Source: Aggregatibacter aphrophilus ATCC 33389
Lineage (GTDB): Bacteria > Pseudomonadota > Gammaproteobacteria > Enterobacterales > Pasteurellaceae
Assembly (NCBI RefSeq): GCF_900636915.1
Contig: NZ_LR134327.1
Location: 744,001 to 808,000, forward strand
DNA: 64,000 bases
Reading direction: 5' to 3'
Shown here: positions 8,640 through 20,186 of the stretch, piece after piece
Numbering within the stretch: position 1 is the stretch's first letter
How the letters are laid out: each line of letters begins with the position of its first letter
Notes under the pieces: generated by a model
What the model was told of the DNA's origin: nothing
The model's database searches: none
What the model saw: only the letters and a program-made list of their open reading frames with translations
Position numbers and translations under genes: made by a program

Positions 8640-8678
8640 ATGACCGCACTTTTGAACTATGAAAGTGCGGTTCTTTTT
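8640..8678 (+). terminator. Terminator built from two facing uptake signals, after purA
   Basis: ACCGCACTTTT, a short loop, then GAAAGTGCGGT is followed by TTCTTTTTT. The two uptake-signal words pair to form a stem of about ten base pairs with a T-rich tail. This is a classic dual uptake-signal terminator of the Haemophilus group. Confidence 0.8.
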
Positions 8679-8692
8679 TGGAGAGTTTTTTT

Positions 8693-9363
8693 ATGAATGA
8701 ACAGGAAAAAAACGTCGTCGAATACCTAACCGAACACCCTGATTTTTTCACCACTCATCCTGATTTGCTTGCCAAACTGTCCGTGGTTCACCCACAAAAA
8801 GGCACGCTATCTTTGGTGGAAGCACAGTTGGAACAACAACGCCAACAAATCAAAACCCTTACGGCATTCTTAGAAAAATTCCATCAACTTGCCTATCAAG
8901 AGGCAGACATTTTCTACGCACTCATGCCTTTACAAAAGAAATTGTTTCAAGCGGAAGATTTCCAACGGGTGAAGAAAAACTGAAACAATGGGCGCAGTCC
9001 TATGAACTGGACGGTGCAAAAATATTGCTATTTCGAAATGCGTGGCCAAAAAATGAAACCATTCCCGAACAATATTGGATTGACCGCAAGGCATTTGAAC
9101 TGATTCGCTTGGAACGCCTCAGCTTGCGCCAATTTTACTTGGGCGATTTAAGCAACAAAGAAAAACACCTGATGTTTCTGCCGGAAGAATTTCCCATTGG
9201 CTCCGTGGCAATTTGTCTGCTTGGCGCAAAAACAAGCCACAAACCCACCGCACTTTTATTATTCACCTCCAGAGATACCGCTCGCTTCCATAACGGACAA
9301 GACACCACCTTCTTAAAACACATCGTGGACATTGTGGAATTGCATTTGGGAAGATGGGTGTAA
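8693..9363 (+). pseudogene. DUF484 (YigA-like) gene with a frameshift
   Basis: The first part (8693-8983) encodes an N-terminus with EHPDFFTTHPDLLAKLSV, typical of DUF484 proteins, which are GAF-like and usually lie upstream of xerC. At about 8962 the frame breaks: it reads 'AEDFQRVKKN-stop'. The next frame continues with FPTGEEKLKQWAQSYELDG and runs on to a normal end, HIVDIVELHLGRWV, at 9363. Restoring one C in TTCC would rebuild the frame. The ATG at 8693 follows a GGAGAG ribosome site. No xerC follows; instead comes the Rhs block. A one-base sequencing error cannot be excluded. Confidence 0.75.
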
Positions 9364-9467
9364 TTGCCCATAAAAGTGCGGTTGGTTTTTCAGGCGTTTT
9401 TTTAAATGATAACGGTCACATGCAATGCGACCGTGAAATTACCTCGATTTTCAGTTTGTTATCGAGT

Positions 9468-9485
9468 ACGCGTCGGGAGACGCGC
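9468..9485. repeat. Repeat family B, single arm
   Basis: ACGCGTCGGGAGACGCGC is a self-complementary hairpin arm. It matches, with small changes, the right arms of the elements at 24105-24188 and 29288-29364. Only this arm is recognisable here, so it is probably a degenerate copy. Confidence 0.55.
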
Positions 9486-9554
9486 ACTATCTGGGGGAAT
9501 GATAAGAATGATATTTATCTTGCACTGAAAGAGGTTTGTGAGAAATAAGGCAAT

Positions 9555-9594
9555 CATAGTAAAAGAGTTTGTTTTTACTAAACCTTTTACTATG
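9555..9594. repeat. Long AT-rich inverted repeat downstream of the Rhs immunity gene
   Basis: CATAGTAAAAG pairs perfectly with CTTTTACTATG. The stem continues with GTTT/AAAC after one unpaired A, around a 9-nt loop. It lies about 70 bp past the stop of the putative immunity gene, read on the minus strand. It may act as a transcription end or mark an insertion boundary. No T-run follows on either strand. Confidence 0.5.
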
Positions 9595-9665
9595 GCTAGA
9601 ATGTGCTTTAAAATGGCAATTTATCAACTAGTTGGTGTCTATTGACATTAACTTATATTTCTCTT

Positions 9666-9950
9666 TTAAGAAGAAATACTTTTCAAAAAATCATTAATCT
9701 CTGAAGTAGTTAAGTGAGAAATAAATTCAATATCTATATTTTCATCATCCCTCATGATTTGAACAAGTCCCGTAAAATCAAATAAAATCATTACCCCCCC
9801 CCCTGAATCTTTTAAGTAAGAAAAGTCGTATCCATCTAAAAATACGCCTCCATCGATCAAACAAACCACGATACCTTTATCTAAAGGGAACGAGTTTTTC
9901 CAATAAACAAGATCACCAAGCATTATATTTTGATGGGTAGCATATTTCAT
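9666..9950 (-). CDS. Putative Rhs immunity protein, 94 aa, with a G10 tract
   Basis: I do not recognise the fold. The gene starts 12 bp after the stop of the VgrG-Rhs toxin gene, with AAGGA before the ATG. It encodes a small acidic protein, which is the standard place and size for a cognate immunity protein; the role is inferred from position. It has no signal peptide, so it should act in the cytoplasm. A run of ten G residues on the coding strand (9794-9803 on the plus strand as C) encodes SGGGV near residues 49-53. Slippage there would shift the frame and cut the protein about half-way. The AT-rich base composition resembles the toxin tip, as expected if tip and immunity moved together. Confidence 0.65.
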   Translation of the reverse strand: MKYATHQNIMLGDLVYWKNSFPLDKGIVVCLIDGGVFLDGYDFSYLKDSGGGVMILFDFTGLVQIMRDDENIDIEFISHLTTSEINDFLKSISS

Positions 9951-9962
9951 GAGAATTCCTTC

Positions 9963-12900
9963 TTAGTTTACGAATGGCTCAACCGGCACCATTGCTGGAG
10001 TTAATTGGTATGGTTTTAATACATACTTTTGTTTACTCCAAAAACATTTACAATTTGGATAAGGAGCTTGATTTGATTCAAATATATTATGGTGAGAACC
10101 ATATACTCCATGCTCCATCTTATCATCAGGAATAACATCAAGAGGACGATATCCTATTGTTTTAGGAGGAACTATTCGTCCACTTGTTGTTATACAAGGA
10201 GGACATTTTTTACATTTAGATGTACTTTCCGTCTTAGCTTGCGTACTCGCTCGCGCCCTACTTTTAACTGTTTCCTCTACCGCAGCCCCAACTGCAATAA
10301 CGCCCAGTGTAATAAGCGCAGCTTTCCCTAACACAATAAGCTCCGGAGCTAAAAGAAGTGCCGGTGCAAATAACCCCAACGGATCGGTTTGATTCTGCAC
10401 CGCCCCCTCAAACCGATACAGATTCACTCCCCCAGCCAACCCTATCGGATCCTGCGTAATAAACCGTCCTAACACCGGCTCGTAATAGCGGAAAAAGTTA
10501 TAATGCAGTCCCGTCTCTTCATCAAAATATTGGTTCTGTAAGCGGAACGGTTGGTGGCTGCCCGATGCGGTTTCCCGGTAGCTGTCTCTAATAAGACTGC
10601 CCCAAGCGTCATAACGCCCCTTCCAGATGAGCTTGCCGTCGCTGTCCGTCATCTCCCGTGGGATGCCGATTTGGTCGCAGTGGAAGTAGTTGATGGTATG
10701 TTCGGCATTATCACCGTCTTTGTAACACTGCGCCAACGGCTCGTAACTGCCCGGCTCGCTGTAAATGTAAGTAAAAGTGCGGTCGGTTTTTTCAGCATTT
10801 TGCTGATGATTACCCGTGCGAATCTCCTGCACCAGATGCGAACCGTCCCAAATAAATTGGGTATGTAATCGTTGTTCACCTTGCTTGTTCAGTTTCGATT
10901 TAGCAATCCGTCTGCCCAGTGGGTCATAATCATACACCCAGCTTTCCGCCTTGTAACGGTCACGAATATCTGCCTGGACAAGTCGGTTTTTCAGGTCATA
11001 AGTATAACGCTGATAATCACCGTTTGCCGCTTGGCATTCCACGAGATTGCCCAAGCTATCATAAGTAAAACGAATACCGCAATAGTTAACCACGCGGTTG
11101 TCGATAACTTTTTCCGTCGGGTCGTTGATAAGGTTACTTGCCGGGTCAAAGTAAAAATGCTGACTATGCCCTTGGCTATCCGCTTTGGCAATGCGTCCCA
11201 AGTTGTCGTATTGATACTGCGTCTGTTGTGGTGCATCAAACGGCTTATGTGGAAAATAAGTACGCGTCTGGCTAAGGTGACCCAATTCGTCATAGCCGTA
11301 AGTGCGGTCGATTTGCACGGCGTTTTGTTGATTCGCAAGTCCTGCCTGTTGTTGGACCAAGCGCCCCATATCGTCATAATAGTAACGTCCGTTAAGCCGC
11401 CCTTGGCTGCGGCTAATCTCACGGTGTAAATCATCCCGCTCCATTTCGCTAATTAGCTGTTTATTCAGCTTAATTCCGCTTAAATGCCCCGTGCCGTAGT
11501 AAAAATATCGAATACTATCACCCGACGGCAACACTGTTTTTAAACGATTGTTATTGGCATCATATTCATAAGCGATTTTTTTGTCGCCATGCGCCTCTTC
11601 AATTAAACGTCCCGTGGCATCATAGCGAAAATCAATGTGTTGTCCTCCGCAGGCAACCTGTGTCATTTGTCCGTTTAAATCAAAGCTAAAGGTAGTACGA
11701 CTGGATTGCTCGCCCTGACGAATATGCTCTTCGGTCATTTGACCAAGCTGATTATATTTGAATTCGGCAGTACGAATTGCCGGCTTGTTGCGTTTTGGCG
11801 CTTCCGTCACACCGTAATCCGTGCGTCTAATAAGCTGACCTTGAGTATCATACTCATACTGCGTGAGCTTATCATCGAAACCTTTTTCCCAAATCAGCCT
11901 GTCTTGGTCGTCATACACAAAACGGTAAGTGGCGTGATTCTCATTGGTCAACCCAACCAGTCTGCCTGCTTGATCATAATGATATTGGAAGTGATGTCCT
12001 TGTGCATTCGTCTTGCTGGTCGGCAAACCGTCGATACGATATTGATAGCTTGTTTGGTTACCCTGTGGATCAATCACCTGACTAAGTCGGCCCACTTTGT
12101 CATATTGATAGCGGGTTTGACTTTGATTCGGTAATAGCACCGCAATCAATTGCTGACGATCGTTGTACTGATACGCCGTGGTGTCACCCAGTACGTCGGT
12201 TTGTGAGGTAAGTTGTCCTAACGCGTTATACTTAAAACAGGTTTGATTGCCGGAACAGTCGGTAACTTGGTTTAATTGGAAGTTTTCATCGTAAGCAAAT
12301 AATGTATTGTTTCCTAATGGATCAGTGCTTGAGCTCAAAAGCCCCTTGTCGTTGTAGGCATAGACGCTTTTTTGACTTAATGCATCCAGACGTTCGATAA
12401 GGTTACCGCTGTCGTCGTAACGGTAACGGGTCATATTACCCAACGCATCCGTTTGCCCGATTAAGCGTCCATCATTGTCATACAGAAAATACAACATGGC
12501 ATTATCCGGGCGGGTCAGTTTGGTAATCTGTCCTTGCGGGTTATATTCAAAATAGGAGGTTTGTCCGGAATGCGACGTTTGACGCAACACTCGACCTAAC
12601 TTGTCCCGTTCAAGTAGCATCGCCTGTCCGTCTGTTGAAACTAATTTGACCAATTCATTATGTTCATCAAAATGGTATTCCTCACGTCTGCCTAAGGCAT
12701 CAGTTACCACAGTGTAGGTCGGGAAATACGCAAACTCCCAACGTTCACCAAGGTTGGTAGTATTGAGAGTTACTTTACCATTTGGTGTATAGTGGTCGTA
12801 TTCATAAGTAGAGATTAAGCCTGCGCTATCTTCATGGGAAATCATCAGATGATTACGATAGCCAAATTTGCGCACAAGGTTACCTAAGCCATCGGTAACC

Positions 12901-15713
12901 TCAATTAAATCGCCTTCGACATTGTAGCGATAAGACACTAACTTACGTCCTAAGAAAGATTCATCTGTGGTGTGAGAAAGTGCGGTCGATTTTTTCAGTG
13001 TTTCCTGCAGCAGAGCCAGATCAATGTCTGAAAAGGTCTGTGTTAACAAATAGACATGGGTTAACCGCCGTTGAGAACTATCCTCGGTATTAGCCTGATT
13101 TTCAGAGATATTCGCAAACTGTAAAGCAAAGACCCGCCCGTTACCATCTATAATGGCATAAGGTAAGTTGTCTTGTCCGTATAAAAACTGTTGGCGGTTA
13201 CCGTGATTATCCGTAATTTGTGTCAGCACAAAAGCACTACCGTCTTCCCCTTGACGCATAAAGGTGAAGTGTACGGTTTTATCCAAGGAGGAGATGCGAA
13301 TCGTTTCCGCAGATAAACGGTGAGTCCAAATCTGCTCTGCTTGGATATACACAGGCTCTTGCTCCGCAAGGATAGATGGCAAGGGAATTTCTCGTCCTTG
13401 TTCATCAACATAAACCAGCTGTTCAGCAGGTTGTGCCTCCGAGTGTTGTTTGTCACTGCCGGCTTCTTCCCCTACCACATCGGCAAGCGCTTCTATCGGT
13501 ATAGACATACGAGATTCAATACGCTGACAGCCGTTGACTAACCAACCTTGCCCCAACCAACCGGTATGCGCCACATCAGAAAAATAACTGCGCTGCCAGT
13601 TCAACGGCAGAAGACCCGGGAAAGTAAAATCCACTTCATTGCTCAGCAATTTTATCCCTAAAATCGGATTCACCGGACGCCCGACGGCCGCAGCCTGTTT
13701 ACAGGCAATACACTCGCCCTCTACCGAGTGCCCACCTGCCACGGCATTGCCTTTAATCGTTAATGGGCCTTCAATCGTTACGATACCTTTTAAGGTAATA
13801 CCCTTTTCATTAATATGAATCTGACCGCCTTTACTGTCTAACCGAATTTCATCTTTGCCGGTAACATGCATATTTTGGCTAATCAGCGTCAATAATTGTG
13901 CCGTGCTCAGATGCGTGTTATTACCCGCATCAATGTGATAATCCTTGCCTACCTTCAAATCATAGCTCTGCCCGACCATTTCATGTTGATCCAACAATAC
14001 ATTCAAGCTCCGCATCATGCCAACATTGTGCAACTCATTCATGGTAATGTTGGTCATGCGATTAAAGCCTACGGTGAGCATTTCATTTTGTTTGATGGTT
14101 TGCGAGCGGTTTTTACCTACGGTGATTTTTTCATTGCGCCCGACTTTTTCAGTACGATTACGTCCTACATTCGTCGTTTCATCATTATTCACTACATTGT
14201 TTTGGTCTTTCTCAGCATGAATAAAGATTTCTTCACGGTCTTTTTCATCCTCAAAACGCAATTCATTAAAACCATTACCTTTATGCGTCTTAGACTTAAT
14301 CGTCATCCGCGTTTTGTGTTCAGGAAGGTTATAAGGCGGCTCGGTGGTGCTGTGATAAGTTCGACCGGTAATAATCGGTTGGTCCGGGTCACCTTCTAAG
14401 AAATCGACAATCACTTCATGCCCGATTCGCGGTATCATCATGGCACCAAATTGCGCGCCCGCCCAACCTTGACTAACGCGCACCCAACACGAACTATGTT
14501 CGTCATTGTTGCCCAATCTATCCCAAGGGAATTGAATCTTCACCCGCCCCCATTCATCACAATAGATTTCTTCATCTGCCGGACCGACAACATGCGCCAC
14601 CTGAGGACCATCGACCACAGGACGGGGTTGTGGTGTCGGGCGCCATTGTCTTCCATGCGGTATCAGCTTCATTTCATTTTCGTAACGATTGCCCTCAGCC
14701 CCCGCCTCTTCTTCCAATACGCCACTTTGCCAACCACGATGAACGACTCCAACAACAAGCCAATCTTGGTTGAAGTTTGAGCGTGTATGACCGCTTAAGC
14801 TAAAGCAATAGCCCGGGATGATACGTAAATCATCACTGTTTGCCATCGCCATTTCCGCTTCACGTTGTTCATATTCCAAACGGTATTGGCTGAAAGGTTT
14901 GCCTTGCGCATCACGTTTATAACGTCCCGGATAATCATATAGCTCATACTGACCATGACGGTTTTCACCCAATACGTTGGCACGGTTATGGGTGGACTGA
15001 TGTTCTTGGTTATAACGTGGATTGGTAAACGTGTAATCACGCAAGGTTTGCAGGGTCGGCTTTAACTTTTCTTCATACGCAAAACGCCACACCGCGGCTT
15101 GTGGACGCTCGCCTGACGGCATCGCGTTGTAAAGCAAATCACCTTTTAACTCCGCCAATTCCGTACTATTGGAAAAATGTAACGTGTGCCCGTCATTTGT
15201 GTGTTCAAAATAATAATAAGTGCCTTCTTCCGCCGCTAAGCGTTTGATAAACTCAAGGTCGGTTTCACGATATTGCACACAGTATTCACGCGTCCAGTAT
15301 CTGTCTTTTAAATGAAATTGGTGTTTTGCGACCTGATTTTTACTTAACAGCGTTTCAATAATCTTTTGGCTGTCCTGTTGTTGGAAAATACGTAAATCTG
15401 CTTGTAAATCTGCACGGGATAATGCCGGCTCAATCACCATGCTATAACGGGTGCGGGAAAAACCGCTTTCACCTTGTTTTAGTCCGGTCACAATACCGTT
15501 GAGATGTCGTACGGCAGCGTTGTCTTGCCAAAAGGTTAACGTGGCGGGGTGGTCTAAGATATCGGAGAATTTTGGCGAATCATCGAAACTTGCTAATTCA
15601 AGCTCTGCACGAAATAATTCGGATAAGTGTTCGGTTACAACAAAACTCACTACTTCAAATTGGGTTGAGCCATTTACGGTTAAGCTATAACGATAATTTG
15701 ATTGAACTGTCAT
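9963..15713 (-). CDS. VgrG-Rhs fusion with C-terminal toxin-like domain, 1916 aa
   Basis: One uninterrupted frame joins two usually separate proteins. Residues 1 to about 370 match the gp27-like part of VgrG (TssI), the T6SS spike. About 370-460 is the gp5 OB-fold region (YCDEWGRVKIQFPWDR, CWVRVSQGWAGAQFG). About 460-660 is the needle, with repeats such as VGRNRTEKVGRNEKITVGKN. From about 678 (GRPVNPILGIKLLSNEVDF) the Rhs shell begins, with many YD repeats (GNLTRYRYDDSG-like). It ends at RFITQDPIGLAGGVNLYRF and the DPLGL cleavage-type motif at about 1777-1781. The last 134 residues are variable: a hydrophobic stretch, then a Cys/His-rich domain. I infer a self-contained T6SS spike plus caged toxin. 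There is no PAAR motif between the two halves. No other T6SS gene is in the window. Uptake signals occur inside the Rhs part. Confidence 0.9.
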   Translation of the reverse strand: MTVQSNYRYSLTVNGSTQFEVVSFVVTEHLSELFRAELELASFDDSPKFSDILDHPATLTFWQDNAAVRHLNGIVTGLKQGESGFSRTRYSMVIEPALSRADLQADLRIFQQQDSQKIIETLLSKNQVAKHQFHLKDRYWTREYCVQYRETDLEFIKRLAAEEGTYYYFEHTNDGHTLHFSNSTELAELKGDLLYNAMPSGERPQAAVWRFAYEEKLKPTLQTLRDYTFTNPRYNQEHQSTHNRANVLGENRHGQYELYDYPGRYKRDAQGKPFSQYRLEYEQREAEMAMANSDDLRIIPGYCFSLSGHTRSNFNQDWLVVGVVHRGWQSGVLEEEAGAEGNRYENEMKLIPHGRQWRPTPQPRPVVDGPQVAHVVGPADEEIYCDEWGRVKIQFPWDRLGNNDEHSSCWVRVSQGWAGAQFGAMMIPRIGHEVIVDFLEGDPDQPIITGRTYHSTTEPPYNLPEHKTRMTIKSKTHKGNGFNELRFEDEKDREEIFIHAEKDQNNVVNNDETTNVGRNRTEKVGRNEKITVGKNRSQTIKQNEMLTVGFNRMTNITMNELHNVGMMRSLNVLLDQHEMVGQSYDLKVGKDYHIDAGNNTHLSTAQLLTLISQNMHVTGKDEIRLDSKGGQIHINEKGITLKGIVTIEGPLTIKGNAVAGGHSVEGECIACKQAAAVGRPVNPILGIKLLSNEVDFTFPGLLPLNWQRSYFSDVAHTGWLGQGWLVNGCQRIESRMSIPIEALADVVGEEAGSDKQHSEAQPAEQLVYVDEQGREIPLPSILAEQEPVYIQAEQIWTHRLSAETIRISSLDKTVHFTFMRQGEDGSAFVLTQITDNHGNRQQFLYGQDNLPYAIIDGNGRVFALQFANISENQANTEDSSQRRLTHVYLLTQTFSDIDLALLQETLKKSTALSHTTDESFLGRKLVSYRYNVEGDLIEVTDGLGNLVRKFGYRNHLMISHEDSAGLISTYEYDHYTPNGKVTLNTTNLGERWEFAYFPTYTVVTDALGRREEYHFDEHNELVKLVSTDGQAMLLERDKLGRVLRQTSHSGQTSYFEYNPQGQITKLTRPDNAMLYFLYDNDGRLIGQTDALGNMTRYRYDDSGNLIERLDALSQKSVYAYNDKGLLSSSTDPLGNNTLFAYDENFQLNQVTDCSGNQTCFKYNALGQLTSQTDVLGDTTAYQYNDRQQLIAVLLPNQSQTRYQYDKVGRLSQVIDPQGNQTSYQYRIDGLPTSKTNAQGHHFQYHYDQAGRLVGLTNENHATYRFVYDDQDRLIWEKGFDDKLTQYEYDTQGQLIRRTDYGVTEAPKRNKPAIRTAEFKYNQLGQMTEEHIRQGEQSSRTTFSFDLNGQMTQVACGGQHIDFRYDATGRLIEEAHGDKKIAYEYDANNNRLKTVLPSGDSIRYFYYGTGHLSGIKLNKQLISEMERDDLHREISRSQGRLNGRYYYDDMGRLVQQQAGLANQQNAVQIDRTYGYDELGHLSQTRTYFPHKPFDAPQQTQYQYDNLGRIAKADSQGHSQHFYFDPASNLINDPTEKVIDNRVVNYCGIRFTYDSLGNLVECQAANGDYQRYTYDLKNRLVQADIRDRYKAESWVYDYDPLGRRIAKSKLNKQGEQRLHTQFIWDGSHLVQEIRTGNHQQNAEKTDRTFTYIYSEPGSYEPLAQCYKDGDNAEHTINYFHCDQIGIPREMTDSDGKLIWKGRYDAWGSLIRDSYRETASGSHQPFRLQNQYFDEETGLHYNFFRYYEPVLGRFITQDPIGLAGGVNLYRFEGAVQNQTDPLGLFAPALLLAPELIVLGKAALITLGVIAVGAAVEETVKSRARASTQAKTESTSKCKKCPPCITTSGRIVPPKTIGYRPLDVIPDDKMEHGVYGSHHNIFESNQAPYPNCKCFWSKQKYVLKPYQLTPAMVPVEPFVN

Positions 15714-16113
15714 AACGGGTTCCTATAAAGACGCTTATTTATTCATTTATGGTTTACATCTCATAAATCCCTGGTTTTTGTGGGCTTATTAAAAATAAGC
15801 CAGTTCCGCTTCATTTTCAACTTATGTAAATTTTTTCTTTTTTGTAACATTGAAGTAAAAGTGCGGTTGGTTTAAAAAGTATTTTAACTCATTGCTTGCC
15901 TGTCTTTACTAACGCGTGCCTCCCCTCTTGCTTTCGATATTATACGCTGTTAAAAAGCAAGAACTATCTAAAATTAAACAAATCCTTGATCCTGCTCACA
16001 ATTTAATAAAAAGACACTTTCTTTATTGCTATTGCCTTCCTACAATGATCCTGTTTTTAATTTATTAAGAACACACAATTCAATTTTACTTCAGATATCA
16101 CAAGGGTCTCATT
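15714..16113. other. Divergent intergenic region, Rhs gene and yedE
   Basis: This 400-bp gap must hold the promoters of the VgrG-Rhs gene (minus) and yedE (plus). I see a small hairpin GGCTTATT/AATAAGCC at 15783-15801, an uptake signal at about 15858 and an inverted pair CTTGCTTT/AAAAGCAAG at about 15929-15962. No ORF is convincing. Confidence 0.5.
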
Positions 16114-17369: not shown

Positions 17370-18511
17370 TTAACCGTAATACCGATGGAAATAATCGCCT
17401 CGGTTAACTGCTCAAGGTTTAATGCCGTTAAAGATTACACCATTAACGGTCACGCCTGTATTAATAAAGCGTTGGCGGGAAACCTCAATTTCTTTTTGGC
17501 TGGTTTGTTCAAAGCGGGCAACTAATAATACCGTTCCAACATGACGCCCGATGACGGCAGCATCCGTCACAGCCAAGACAGGTGGGGCGGAAACGATTAC
17601 CAAGTCGTAATTAGCAGAAGCCCACTCCAATAACTGTGTAAAACGCGGAGATGCCAATAACTCTGATGAGGATTGAGACATGGCGCCACGAGTAATGGCG
17701 TATAAATTTTCAGCAGCGATTTGAACAGTTTGATCAATCGCTGTACCTTGCGCCAACAAGTCGCTCAAGCCATTTTGATTGCTGACACCTAACGCGTCGT
17801 GCAAATAACCTCGGCGCAAATCTGCGTCAATTAATAGCACTTTTTTGCCGGTTTGGGCGCTTAAGTTGGCCAGGTTAGCCGCGATAAAACTTTTTCCTGC
17901 GCCAGTGCCAATGCTAGAGAACATGACACGGTTGTTTTTAGCCTGCGTTAATAAATGCTGTACGTCAGTACGTAATCCTCGCAATGCTTCGGCAGATAAA
18001 TCATCCGGGAAGCGTGAAGAAAGTAAGTTTGGAATCTGTAATTCTTTAGCTTTTTTCGCTGCCTTACCACGCGATAAGGCTATTTGTTTATGGGCATAAG
18101 GCACGGTGGCATAAACCGGTACACCGATTTCATCAATTTCATCGGTAGTTTTGATACCTTTATGTAATAAGAATCTAACACTAACAATAGCACCACCAAC
18201 CATGCTACCTAAAATAATAGCAAACACCAAAACCAACAATTTGCGTGGAGCAATAGGATCTGGCATCACTTGCGCTTTATCCAAAATGCGTACATTACTC
18301 ACTGCGCCGGCACGAATAACATCAAGTTCTTGAATTTTATTTTGAAGCTGGACATAGATTTCTTGGTCGGACTGGAAATCACGAGTCAAGCGTACCACTT
18401 CCTTTTGGGTTTCCGGCAAGGATTCCATTTCCTTGGCTAAGCACGCTTTCTCTTTTTGCAAGACTTTGCGTTGTTCAAGTAATGCCATGTAGGTTGGGTG
18501 ACCTTTTTTCC
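17370..18511 (-). pseudogene. wzc: Tyrosine-protein kinase Wzc, C-terminal half only
   Basis: Wzc-type bacterial tyrosine kinases control chain length and export of capsule or exopolysaccharide at the inner membrane. Family members are about 700 aa; here only the second half is left. It begins at a deletion junction ([17 protein letters not shown]) and contains a membrane helix (KLLVLVFAIILGSMVGGAIV). The kinase domain has Walker A GTGAGKSF and Walker A' VLLIDADLRRG. The Walker B position reads LVIVSAPP, where I expect LVLIDTPP, so the key Asp seems replaced by Ser. The main frame stops with TGA at 17412. In the same frame the next codons read AVNRGDYFHRYYG before TAA at 17370, a tyrosine-rich tail like those phosphorylated in Wzc. 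A CGA to TGA change would explain the stop. The protein is probably non-functional. Confidence 0.8.
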
Positions 18512-19470
18512 TTAAATGTCACGCCAAGAATACCCACTTTGGCTTTCGCCAAATCAATGTGATTATTAATCATTAACTTAATAGTGCTTTGTGCCACATA
18601 GCTTGTCATGTCATCATTAATCCGATTGACTTGTGGGTTATACCCCACTTCCTCCGCTTTGTGAGTCAGGTAGTAAGGATCGACGCCAATACAGTGTCCT
18701 CCTACCAGGCCCGGACGGAATGGCAAGAAATTCCACTTACTGCCCGCAGCTTCCAAAACATCTAACGTATCAATGCCAATACGTTCAAAAATAATGGAGA
18801 GTTCGTTGATTAATGCGATATTTAAGTCGCGTTGAGTGTTTTCAATAACCTTCGCTGCTTCAGCCACTTTAATGCTGGAAGCTTTGGTGTGTACCCGCCG
18901 TAATGATGCTGGCATAAACCGCATCCACTATATCTGCTATTTCCGGTGTACTGCCGCTGATAATTTTTTTAATGGTGGTTAATGTATTGACTTTGTCACC
19001 CGGATTAATCCGCTCAGGGCTATAACCGGCAAAGAAATCTTGGTTAAATTTCAAACCGGAAACTTCTTCTAAAATCGGCACGCAAACCTCTTCCGTAGCC
19101 CCCGGATAAACAGTAGATTCATAAACGACAATATCACCTTTCTTCAAGACTTGACCGACAGTATTACTGGCTTTTTGAAGCGGCGTTAAATCAGGACGAT
19201 TCACATCATCAATAGGCGTTGGAACAGTCACAATAAAAAAGTTACATTGTTTTAATTGTGCTAAATCTGCGGTATAAGAAAGATGGTTTGCGGCTTGTAA
19301 ATCTTCAGAAGAAACCTCTAAAGTGCGGTCTTTTCCAGAAGATAATTCATCTACTCGCTCTTGATTAATATCAAATCCAACAGTAGGTATTTTTTTCCGA
19401 ACTCTACGGCTAACAGTAGTCCTACATAGCCCAGCCCAATTACACCGATTTTATAACTTTTAAGATCCAT
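18512..19470 (-). pseudogene. UDP-N-acetylhexosamine 6-dehydrogenase (WbpA/TviB type), decayed
   Basis: Intact relatives oxidise UDP-GlcNAc or UDP-GalNAc for capsule or O-antigen sugars. The start MDLKSYKIGVIGLGYVGL (19470) holds the NAD-binding GxGxxG. A one-base loss near 19387 breaks the frame after EFGKKY; the other frame resumes GFDINQERVDELSSGKDR. A one-base insertion near 18886 breaks it again at ITAGTHQS, where [16 protein letters not shown] is expected. About four codons of the usual QVILAGRRINDD region are also missing (QVNRINDD). [18 protein letters not shown], with the catalytic Cys, is still readable. The gene stops at GVTFKE, where it fuses to the middle of wzc. The last quarter of the gene and whatever lay between were deleted. 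Confidence 0.82.
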
Positions 19471-19497: not shown

Positions 19498-20186
19498 TGA
19501 TTAAACTTTAAAAATAGCTTGGAATTTAATCACATTTAAATGAGCCAATAATATTCACTAATCACAGCTTCACATACCCCAATCTGACTAATAAACCCCC
19601 GTGCAAGTTCCCCCATAAATAAACTGGTTGGACCATTCAACAAATAAACACAACAAATAAAAAACAGCCTTATAAATTAAATATACAAAAATAAAGATTG
19701 CGTCATAACTATTTGATTTTAATATAAAATTAATTTAAATGACAAGGTTAATATATAAAAATAATCACACAAAAAAATTAAATAATATATTAAAAGATAA
19801 AAATTTAAAATAACAAATCAAAAAAACAAACAAAATATAAAAATTAAACAAAACCACAAATAAATTAAATACAAAAATTAAATTTATCACAGCAACAAAT
19901 CTATATTGTAAAAAATAAATTCAAATTTTATTTAAAATAAAAATAATATATAAACCTACCAATAAATCAGATAACCATTTGAATCTAAATGAAATCTTTA
20001 AACATAATAAAAAAGAGAAATTAATTCCCGACTAAATCACTTAACTTTTAAATAGACATAAAGACGAAATTCAAAACAAAAATAACGATACTTTAATGTA
20101 ATTTTCAAATGCTATATATTTAGTTTGCATTTCTTACATTCACTTACACTTCTTTACAAATAAAATTAAAAACACCATAATTTTTC
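19498..20186. other. Extremely AT-rich gene-free stretch
   Basis: About 690 bp between the dehydrogenase remnant and the ndk terminator contain no credible ORF. G is rare, and the plus strand is dominated by A, with long A/T runs. Capsule loci often have such AT-rich control regions, which can bind H-NS. This may be the leftover promoter region of the lost polysaccharide operon or degraded coding DNA. Confidence 0.6.

Follow-up and report, generated by a model that had tools for sequence, protein, structure and literature searches.

The window analysed here, a stretch of 64,000 nucleotides from the single contig (2,337,153 bases) of the Aggregatibacter aphrophilus ATCC 33389 genome, carries on its minus strand one open frame at positions 9963 to 15713 that encodes 1916 residues with no internal stop and joins a VgrG spike protein directly to an Rhs shell (Table 1). 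In the VgrG part the matches to Phage_GPD (residues 27-330), Phage_base_V (386-453) and Gp5_trimer_C (470-572) are over the Pfam/NCBIfam cut-offs and represent the gp27-like hub, the OB domain and the gp5 C-terminal trimer helix that are typical for VgrG/TssI (PF05954, PF04717, PF22178, TIGR03361), and a DUF2345 match at 598-642 is below its cut-off. The Rhs part starts with a DUF6531 head (678-735), followed by RHS repeats and the Rhs-associated core (1701-1781), and with its variable C-terminal tip it has the features of T6SS Rhs polymorphic toxins, while the presence of VgrG and Rhs core in one chain is the feature of VgrG-linked Rhs proteins of the type deposited as PDB 8QJA. PAAR families have zero matches in the 1916 residues at E up to 1. 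An earlier note on this DNA, made from the letters and their reading frames, had given the same coordinates, strand, length and order of domains as our ORF and Pfam/NCBIfam analysis, and it was also right that the chain contains no PAAR motif. However, it described the block as sitting alone between a broken DUF484 gene and yedE, which is not quite the case, as a gene for a 94-residue protein, the putative immunity protein, directly adjoins the fusion.

Table 1. Features of the inserted VgrG-Rhs locus in the window.
Feature	Position	Strand	Evidence
Inserted block between DUF484 and yedE (edges approximate)	9374..15978	.	Homology break compared with congeners G019 and G020
Remnant, 3' end of a RepB/ParB-like gene	9497..9549	+	Homology to A. 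actinomycetemcomitans HK_961; reads NDKNDIYLALKEVCEK-stop
Putative immunity gene, 94 aa	9666..9950	-	12 bp after the effector stop; recurs beside the tip
Variable putative toxin tip, residues 1782-1916 (135 residues)	9966..10370	-	Position after DPLGL
C-terminal aspartyl autocleavage signature, DPIGL (1755) ... DPLGL (1777)	10371..10451	-	Motif compared with PMC7170923 and PMC8636562
Rhs shell, residues 678-1781	10371..13682	-	DUF6531, RHS repeats, Rhs_assc_core; match of the AF2 model to cages
Junction, residues 661-677, with C668-x2-C671	13683..13733	-	Alignment of 13 VgrG-Rhs frames
VgrG (TssI) spike module, residues 1-660	13734..15713	-	TIGR03361, E 1.7e-183; Pfam GPD, base_V, Gp5_trimer_C

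The fusion is found in other Pasteurellaceae as well, as a search proposed in the earlier note revealed. A junction query of 79 aa matches 10 of 140 genomes of the family at E<=1e-6, and in eight of the 140 (the source genome G000 as well as G015, G042, G098, G117, G120, G122 and G126), with nine loci in total, the junction and the VgrG hub share one open frame. The remaining matches, in a 473-aa frame of G045 and a 313-aa frame of G055, are limited to the end of the Rhs head. Frames of >1880 aa that begin and end within the contig are present in G000, G117 (two), G122 and G042, the fusion frames of G120, G126 and G098 run past the contig ends, and that of G015, which corresponds to A. actinomycetemcomitans HK_961, is interrupted. 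Among the named records with a junction match, seven of 11 loci have the VgrG-Rhs junction, namely those of Rodentibacter pneumotropicus, R. caecimuris (two), R. mrazii, Rodentibacter sp. Ppn85, Muribacter muris and Aggregatibacter actinomycetemcomitans HK_961, and no VgrG was seen in the matching frame of the other four, which belong to a Neisseriaceae MAG, a Desulfovibrionaceae MAG and two streptococci. The Rodentibacter proteins are 82-84% identical to the fusion in the VgrG part and 75-84% at the junction. Since the same kind of in-frame join occurs in several genomes, it is neither due to chance nor to an assembly error; the artefact that the earlier note had considered is therefore ruled out, and its claim of a true one-chain fusion stands.

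The same note had regarded the fusion as a departure from the normal state, in which VgrG and Rhs are separate, but novelty was not borne out. PDB 8QJA, the closest solved structure in both the sequence and the fold search, was released on 2024-09-25 with the title "T6SS-linked Rhs repeat protein - Advenella mimigardefordensis VgrG-Rhs core"; Rhs proteins are referred to as "less commonly" fused to VgrG in a publication of 2026 (PMC13324451), and it was mentioned in 2012 that VgrG modules might be fused to toxins (PMC3482391). Moreover, VgrG-Rhs frames are present in the Burkholderiaceae Burkholderia arboris (1989 aa), B. multivorans (1958 aa) and Caballeronia sp. NK8 (1950 aa), with approximately 32% identity in VgrG. 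The architecture is therefore already known and has been solved in Advenella, and the A. aphrophilus fusion adds an example with an uncharacterised toxin. Like the fusion, the Advenella protein has VgrG, a CxxC motif, the Rhs head and the Rhs core in one chain. However, both are only 27-28% identical in the shell alignment, an alignment of the N-terminal site shows no proline in 8QJA where the fusion has P680, and the deposited chain ends where the shell of the fusion ends (1781), so that the tips are not comparable. In a tblastn search of plasmids 54 records cover at least 80% of the query, and three places covering 97% were examined. Within the class, the VgrG hub family is present in 95 of 369 genomes; among the matches listed, four VgrG frames exceed 1400 aa, of which that of the source genome and that of G503 (1929 aa) are VgrG-Rhs proteins, and those of G500 and G253 have no match to the Rhs head or core.

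Comparison within the genus identifies the locus as an insertion. The DUF484 gene is indeed broken, as had been read from the letters, and consists of two frames (8678-8983 and 9025-9363). DUF484 DNA is present in seven of nine genomes of the genus, including the source genome; in the stretches read of the six congeners neither rhs nor vgrG lies near DUF484, and the junction has no match anywhere in these six genomes. In G019 and G020, DUF484 and yedE are only 180 bp apart, and homology to the window ends at 9347 and restarts at 15979, with about 61 bp between the matching flanks, which agrees with the inserted block that the earlier note had proposed. The DNA of G017 passes from 9373 straight to the final part of yedE, and in G021, G018 and G016 different DNA follows DUF484. 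An 18-bp repeat with an uptake-signal core marks both ends of the block (9371-9388 and 15856-15873). As there are 58 of these cores in the 64-kb window, a core near the block edge is expected, and natural transformation as the way in which the block moved is only a suggestion. Beside the broken DUF484, the segment at 9497-10000 is 90.9% identical at the DNA level to a segment of HK_961 and includes the end of a RepB-family gene, whose full-length counterpart in HK_961 is a PF07506 RepB; this remnant was carried along with the tip-immunity segment and gives a hint of its origin.

The tip consists of a hydrophobic stretch (1792-1810) followed by a Cys-rich part. Neither the tip nor the 94-aa protein was matched by any Pfam or NCBIfam model up to E 10, residues 1829-1916 had no match in a PDB sequence search up to E 1, and no match was found for the tip in phage records. 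PADLOC gave no match. It matches two of 369 genomes of the class, including its own, and its AF2 model, calculated with three sequences, has a pLDDT of 38.9. Because of the lacking family match and the low score of this model, it is the position of the tip and the paired gene from which its toxicity is assumed. A likeness between the histidines of the tip and Endo VII-type toxins is not supported by the Pfam/NCBIfam searches with the tip or by the PDB search with residues 1829-1916.

Tip and 94-aa gene occur together in other bacteria. The VgrG-Rhs protein of B. arboris (L038:1283-7252) shares with the fusion the architecture, a 72% identical tip and an adjoining 94-aa gene, whereas the whole chains are only 29% identical and a PAAR gene lies just downstream in B. 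arboris; the three B. arboris genes, VgrG-Rhs, the 94-aa gene and the PAAR gene, stand in a row (NZ_CP101525.1, L038:1283-7864) without annotation in the table consulted. The 94-aa proteins of both organisms have a VDGYD/LDGYD stretch in common and can otherwise be aligned only loosely. In HK_961 an 85% identical copy of the 94-aa protein is encoded beside a degenerate copy of the tip. Three of the Rodentibacter fusions are complete at their end; these have tips other than that of A. aphrophilus and are followed by orphan Rhs tips, two of which are 40 and 38% identical to the tip of the fusion. Such exchanged tips and downstream orphan tips in orthologous fusions resemble what is seen in polymorphic toxins. 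The orphan tips form arrays (L025:12213-13846, L027:12354-15176, L029:12480-15885), and some of them precede small genes that may be immunity genes.

In HK_961 the VgrG-Rhs frame (L048:16635-19481) stops early in Rhs. In addition, this strain has a frame of 1458 aa (L048:6769-11145, also L039:3-4097), in which a Phage-tail_3 protein continues into the C-terminal half of a shell of the Rhs type that ends in a tip of its own. HK_961 is the only one of the 140 family genomes that matches across the whole 85-aa phage-Rhs join, with 11 of the 140 matching some part of it, and of four viral loci compared with the join three have the phage half only and the fourth is the same HK_961 contig. A phage tail-tip J-Rhs protein (L039/L040) as a second type of carrier was therefore set aside, as the join is restricted to HK_961 and VgrG-Rhs is broken on the same contig. 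Because the VgrG-Rhs frame stops early on the same contig, the phage-Rhs frame is probably one locus that was interrupted by phage genes, and less likely a phage-borne Rhs.

The source genome has the genes for a T6SS, which the earlier note had asked for. In the profile search TssB, C, E, F, G, J, K, L and M as well as ClpV/TssH are over the NCBIfam cut-offs, TssA is found with PF06812 by a weak match that is above the cut-off (E 1.4e-7, C1:397315-397605), Hcp has an E of 1.5e-29 at C1:363424-363810, and there are six VgrG hubs. The full core set (TssA-C, E-G, J-M, Hcp, ClpV, VgrG) is thus present at the level of genes, which rules out a genome devoid of a T6SS. A. aphrophilus is described to use its T6SS against A. 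actinomycetemcomitans, with Tle5 as a PLD effector (PMC12578953); the main text of that paper does not contain the word "rhs". Only one PAAR protein (88 aa) was found in the source genome at E up to 0.01, and its gene adjoins a standalone vgrG (C1:1235531-1237588). The genome was likewise searched for an Eag chaperone, a further check that had been proposed, and the EagR/DcrB family PF08786 has no match at E up to 0.1. Hence, with neither a PAAR domain in the fusion nor a PF08786 gene in the genome, the features of class I prePAAR Rhs effectors are absent. Among the other genomes with the fusion, G117, G120, G122 and G126 resemble the source genome in that their single PAAR match adjoins a standalone vgrG; the one PAAR match of G042 is part of a 1588-aa frame, and G098 and G015 have three and none, respectively. 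Four further vgrG genes of the source genome are located at C1:33000-52999 and C1:724000-743999 (L008, L010); two adjoin PLD-type genes with PLD matches, one of which is in two frames, and the other two adjoin genes for approximately 800 aa that by eye are alike at the start and different at the end. Just after tssM lies a gene for 820 aa (C1:402870-405332; L013:4871-7333) that resembles autotransporter serine proteases below the cut-off.

The first 1541 nt of the fusion are 99.7% identical to the standalone vgrG beside the PAAR gene, after which the tails diverge, and the other four VgrGs are about 63% identical. A recent duplication or gene conversion of the VgrG core would be the simplest reading of this identity. 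A full-length standalone VgrG is present in seven of the eight genomes with the fusion, the exception being HK_961 with its interrupted copy.

The shell was modelled with AF2 (residues 720-1916, nine sequences in the alignment), which resulted in a partial model with a mean pLDDT of 58.2 that is reliable only from about residue 800 to 1400 (mostly pLDDT >70), where it predicts a series of short strand pairs, as YD repeats would give. In Foldseek the cages of 8qja, RhsA, Tse5 and Tse15 are the top matches of this model (E 1e-58 to 4e-53), with a TM-score of only about 0.33 and an rmsd near 23 Å because much of the shell is poorly modelled. The DPxGL autoprotease signature at 1755 and 1777 is intact and has been described in TseI and Rhs1 (PMC7170923, PMC8636562), so that the tip should start at F1782. 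A CxxC motif stands just before the Rhs head in 11 of 13 VgrG-Rhs frames, six of these being close Aggregatibacter and Rodentibacter relatives. It is missing in the fusions of A. actinomycetemcomitans and M. muris and in two heads that have no VgrG in frame; it is also present in 8QJA, and the tail of the standalone paralogue has CEVC.

Taken together, the protein belongs to the known VgrG-linked Rhs type and is most likely a VgrG specialised ("evolved") as an antibacterial effector whose spike is its own carrier. Its VgrG part would become part of the T6SS spike, the Rhs shell that is bound covalently to it would enclose the C-terminal tip, the aspartyl autoprotease would cut the tip free, which would then act in the struck neighbour, and the adjoining 94-aa protein would protect the producer. 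As spike and cage are one chain, no Eag adaptor would be needed for delivery. It is very improbable that the locus is decaying and functionless in the manner of the interrupted HK_961 copy: although DUF484 is split into two frames and the remnant of a RepB gene has been left behind, there is no disruption of the 1916-codon frame, of the immunity frame or of the C-terminal protease signature, and the genome has the T6SS core set. A more serious alternative, to which we give somewhat less than an even chance, is cleavage of the chain at R679|P680 shortly after it has folded, with VgrG and cage then staying associated non-covalently in the way of TseI, Rhs1 and RhsA; having both in one gene would then merely secure equal supply and pairing, which is compatible with most of what we propose for a specialised VgrG. 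P680 is kept in 15 of 15 aligned Rhs heads and occupies the known N-terminal cut position, which is C420|P421 in TseI, before P289 in Rhs1 and at P305 in RhsA (PMC7170923, PMC8636562, PMC8765631). The glutamates at +7/+8 of TseI and the aspartate before the proline of Rhs1 are absent from the fusion in the alignment of heads, which speaks against a cut. However, RhsA has Ala/Lys at +7/+8, similar to Ile/Lys in the fusion, and is nevertheless cut according to PMC8765631; the idea that N-terminal cleavage was lost with the glutamates was therefore dropped. Furthermore, the deposited chain of 8QJA has 1879 aa while the compared structures comprise approximately 1021 residues and are titled core, although the missing part may just be mobile.

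VgrG proteins form trimers, and the Rhs cage measures approximately 65 x 86 Å (PMC8765631). As three of these cages on one trimer would be crowded, we favour, with about even confidence, a mixed spike, in which one or few fusion chains would assemble with structural VgrG supplied by the 99.7% identical paralogue. Spikes of mixed VgrG composition have been described (PMC8668125, PMC10433429); PMC8668125 attributes the need for different VgrGs to several effectors and not to VgrG mixing itself, and VgrG1 and VgrG2 of Serratia marcescens are reported to form no mixed trimers (PMC4924876). The co-occurrence of a standalone VgrG with the fusion argues only weakly for mixing, because standalone VgrGs are common. 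A stricter version, which we consider rather doubtful, is that the fusion can function only when outnumbered by structural VgrG chains in a mixed spike, which would bear a single cage at its tip. Gene conversion would then hold the first approximately 514 residues practically identical to the structural VgrG beside the PAAR gene, two plain VgrG chains together with PAAR would provide the sharp tip, the one fused chain would hang a single cage on it, and the CxxC at the junction would be the clasp that fixes the cage. Unlikely in our opinion is a homotrimer in which every VgrG chain bears its own cage, three in all next to one another, even though VgrG proteins make homotrimers (PMC8765631) and homotrimers of specialised VgrGs are considered possible in PMC10433429, since cages of this size would presumably crowd at one tip.

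With PAAR-Rhs effectors that depend on Eag, such as RhsA of P. protegens and Rhs1 of P. laumondii, the fusion shares the Rhs cage, the aspartyl protease signature and the C-terminal toxin, which in the fusion is putative. RhsA and Rhs1 join VgrG via prePAAR-TMD-PAAR and EagR, whereas in the fusion, whose chain is without PAAR and whose genome is without a PF08786 match, VgrG itself takes that place. Similar to the fusion, TseI of Aeromonas dhakensis is an Rhs effector without prePAAR and PAAR (PMC8765631), and it is self-cleaved (PMC7170923), but it is described with a separate VgrG1 and the DUF4123 chaperone TecI. The VgrG-linked form of Rhs, with exchangeable tips, spans several genera of the Pasteurellaceae as well as the Burkholderiaceae. 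The fusion brings in a putative tip/immunity pair that lies outside all Pfam/NCBIfam models, and it is a natural system for asking how many Rhs cages one spike can carry. Apart from the fusion, the window contains a short palindromic intergenic repeat (9464-9496, and at L069:9680-9711) that is common to the congener G016 (33 bp, 97%), a gene resembling sugar-nucleotide dehydrogenases, named by eye, that is in two frames (18475-19231), and a stretch of 500 bp with 20% G+C (19500-20000).
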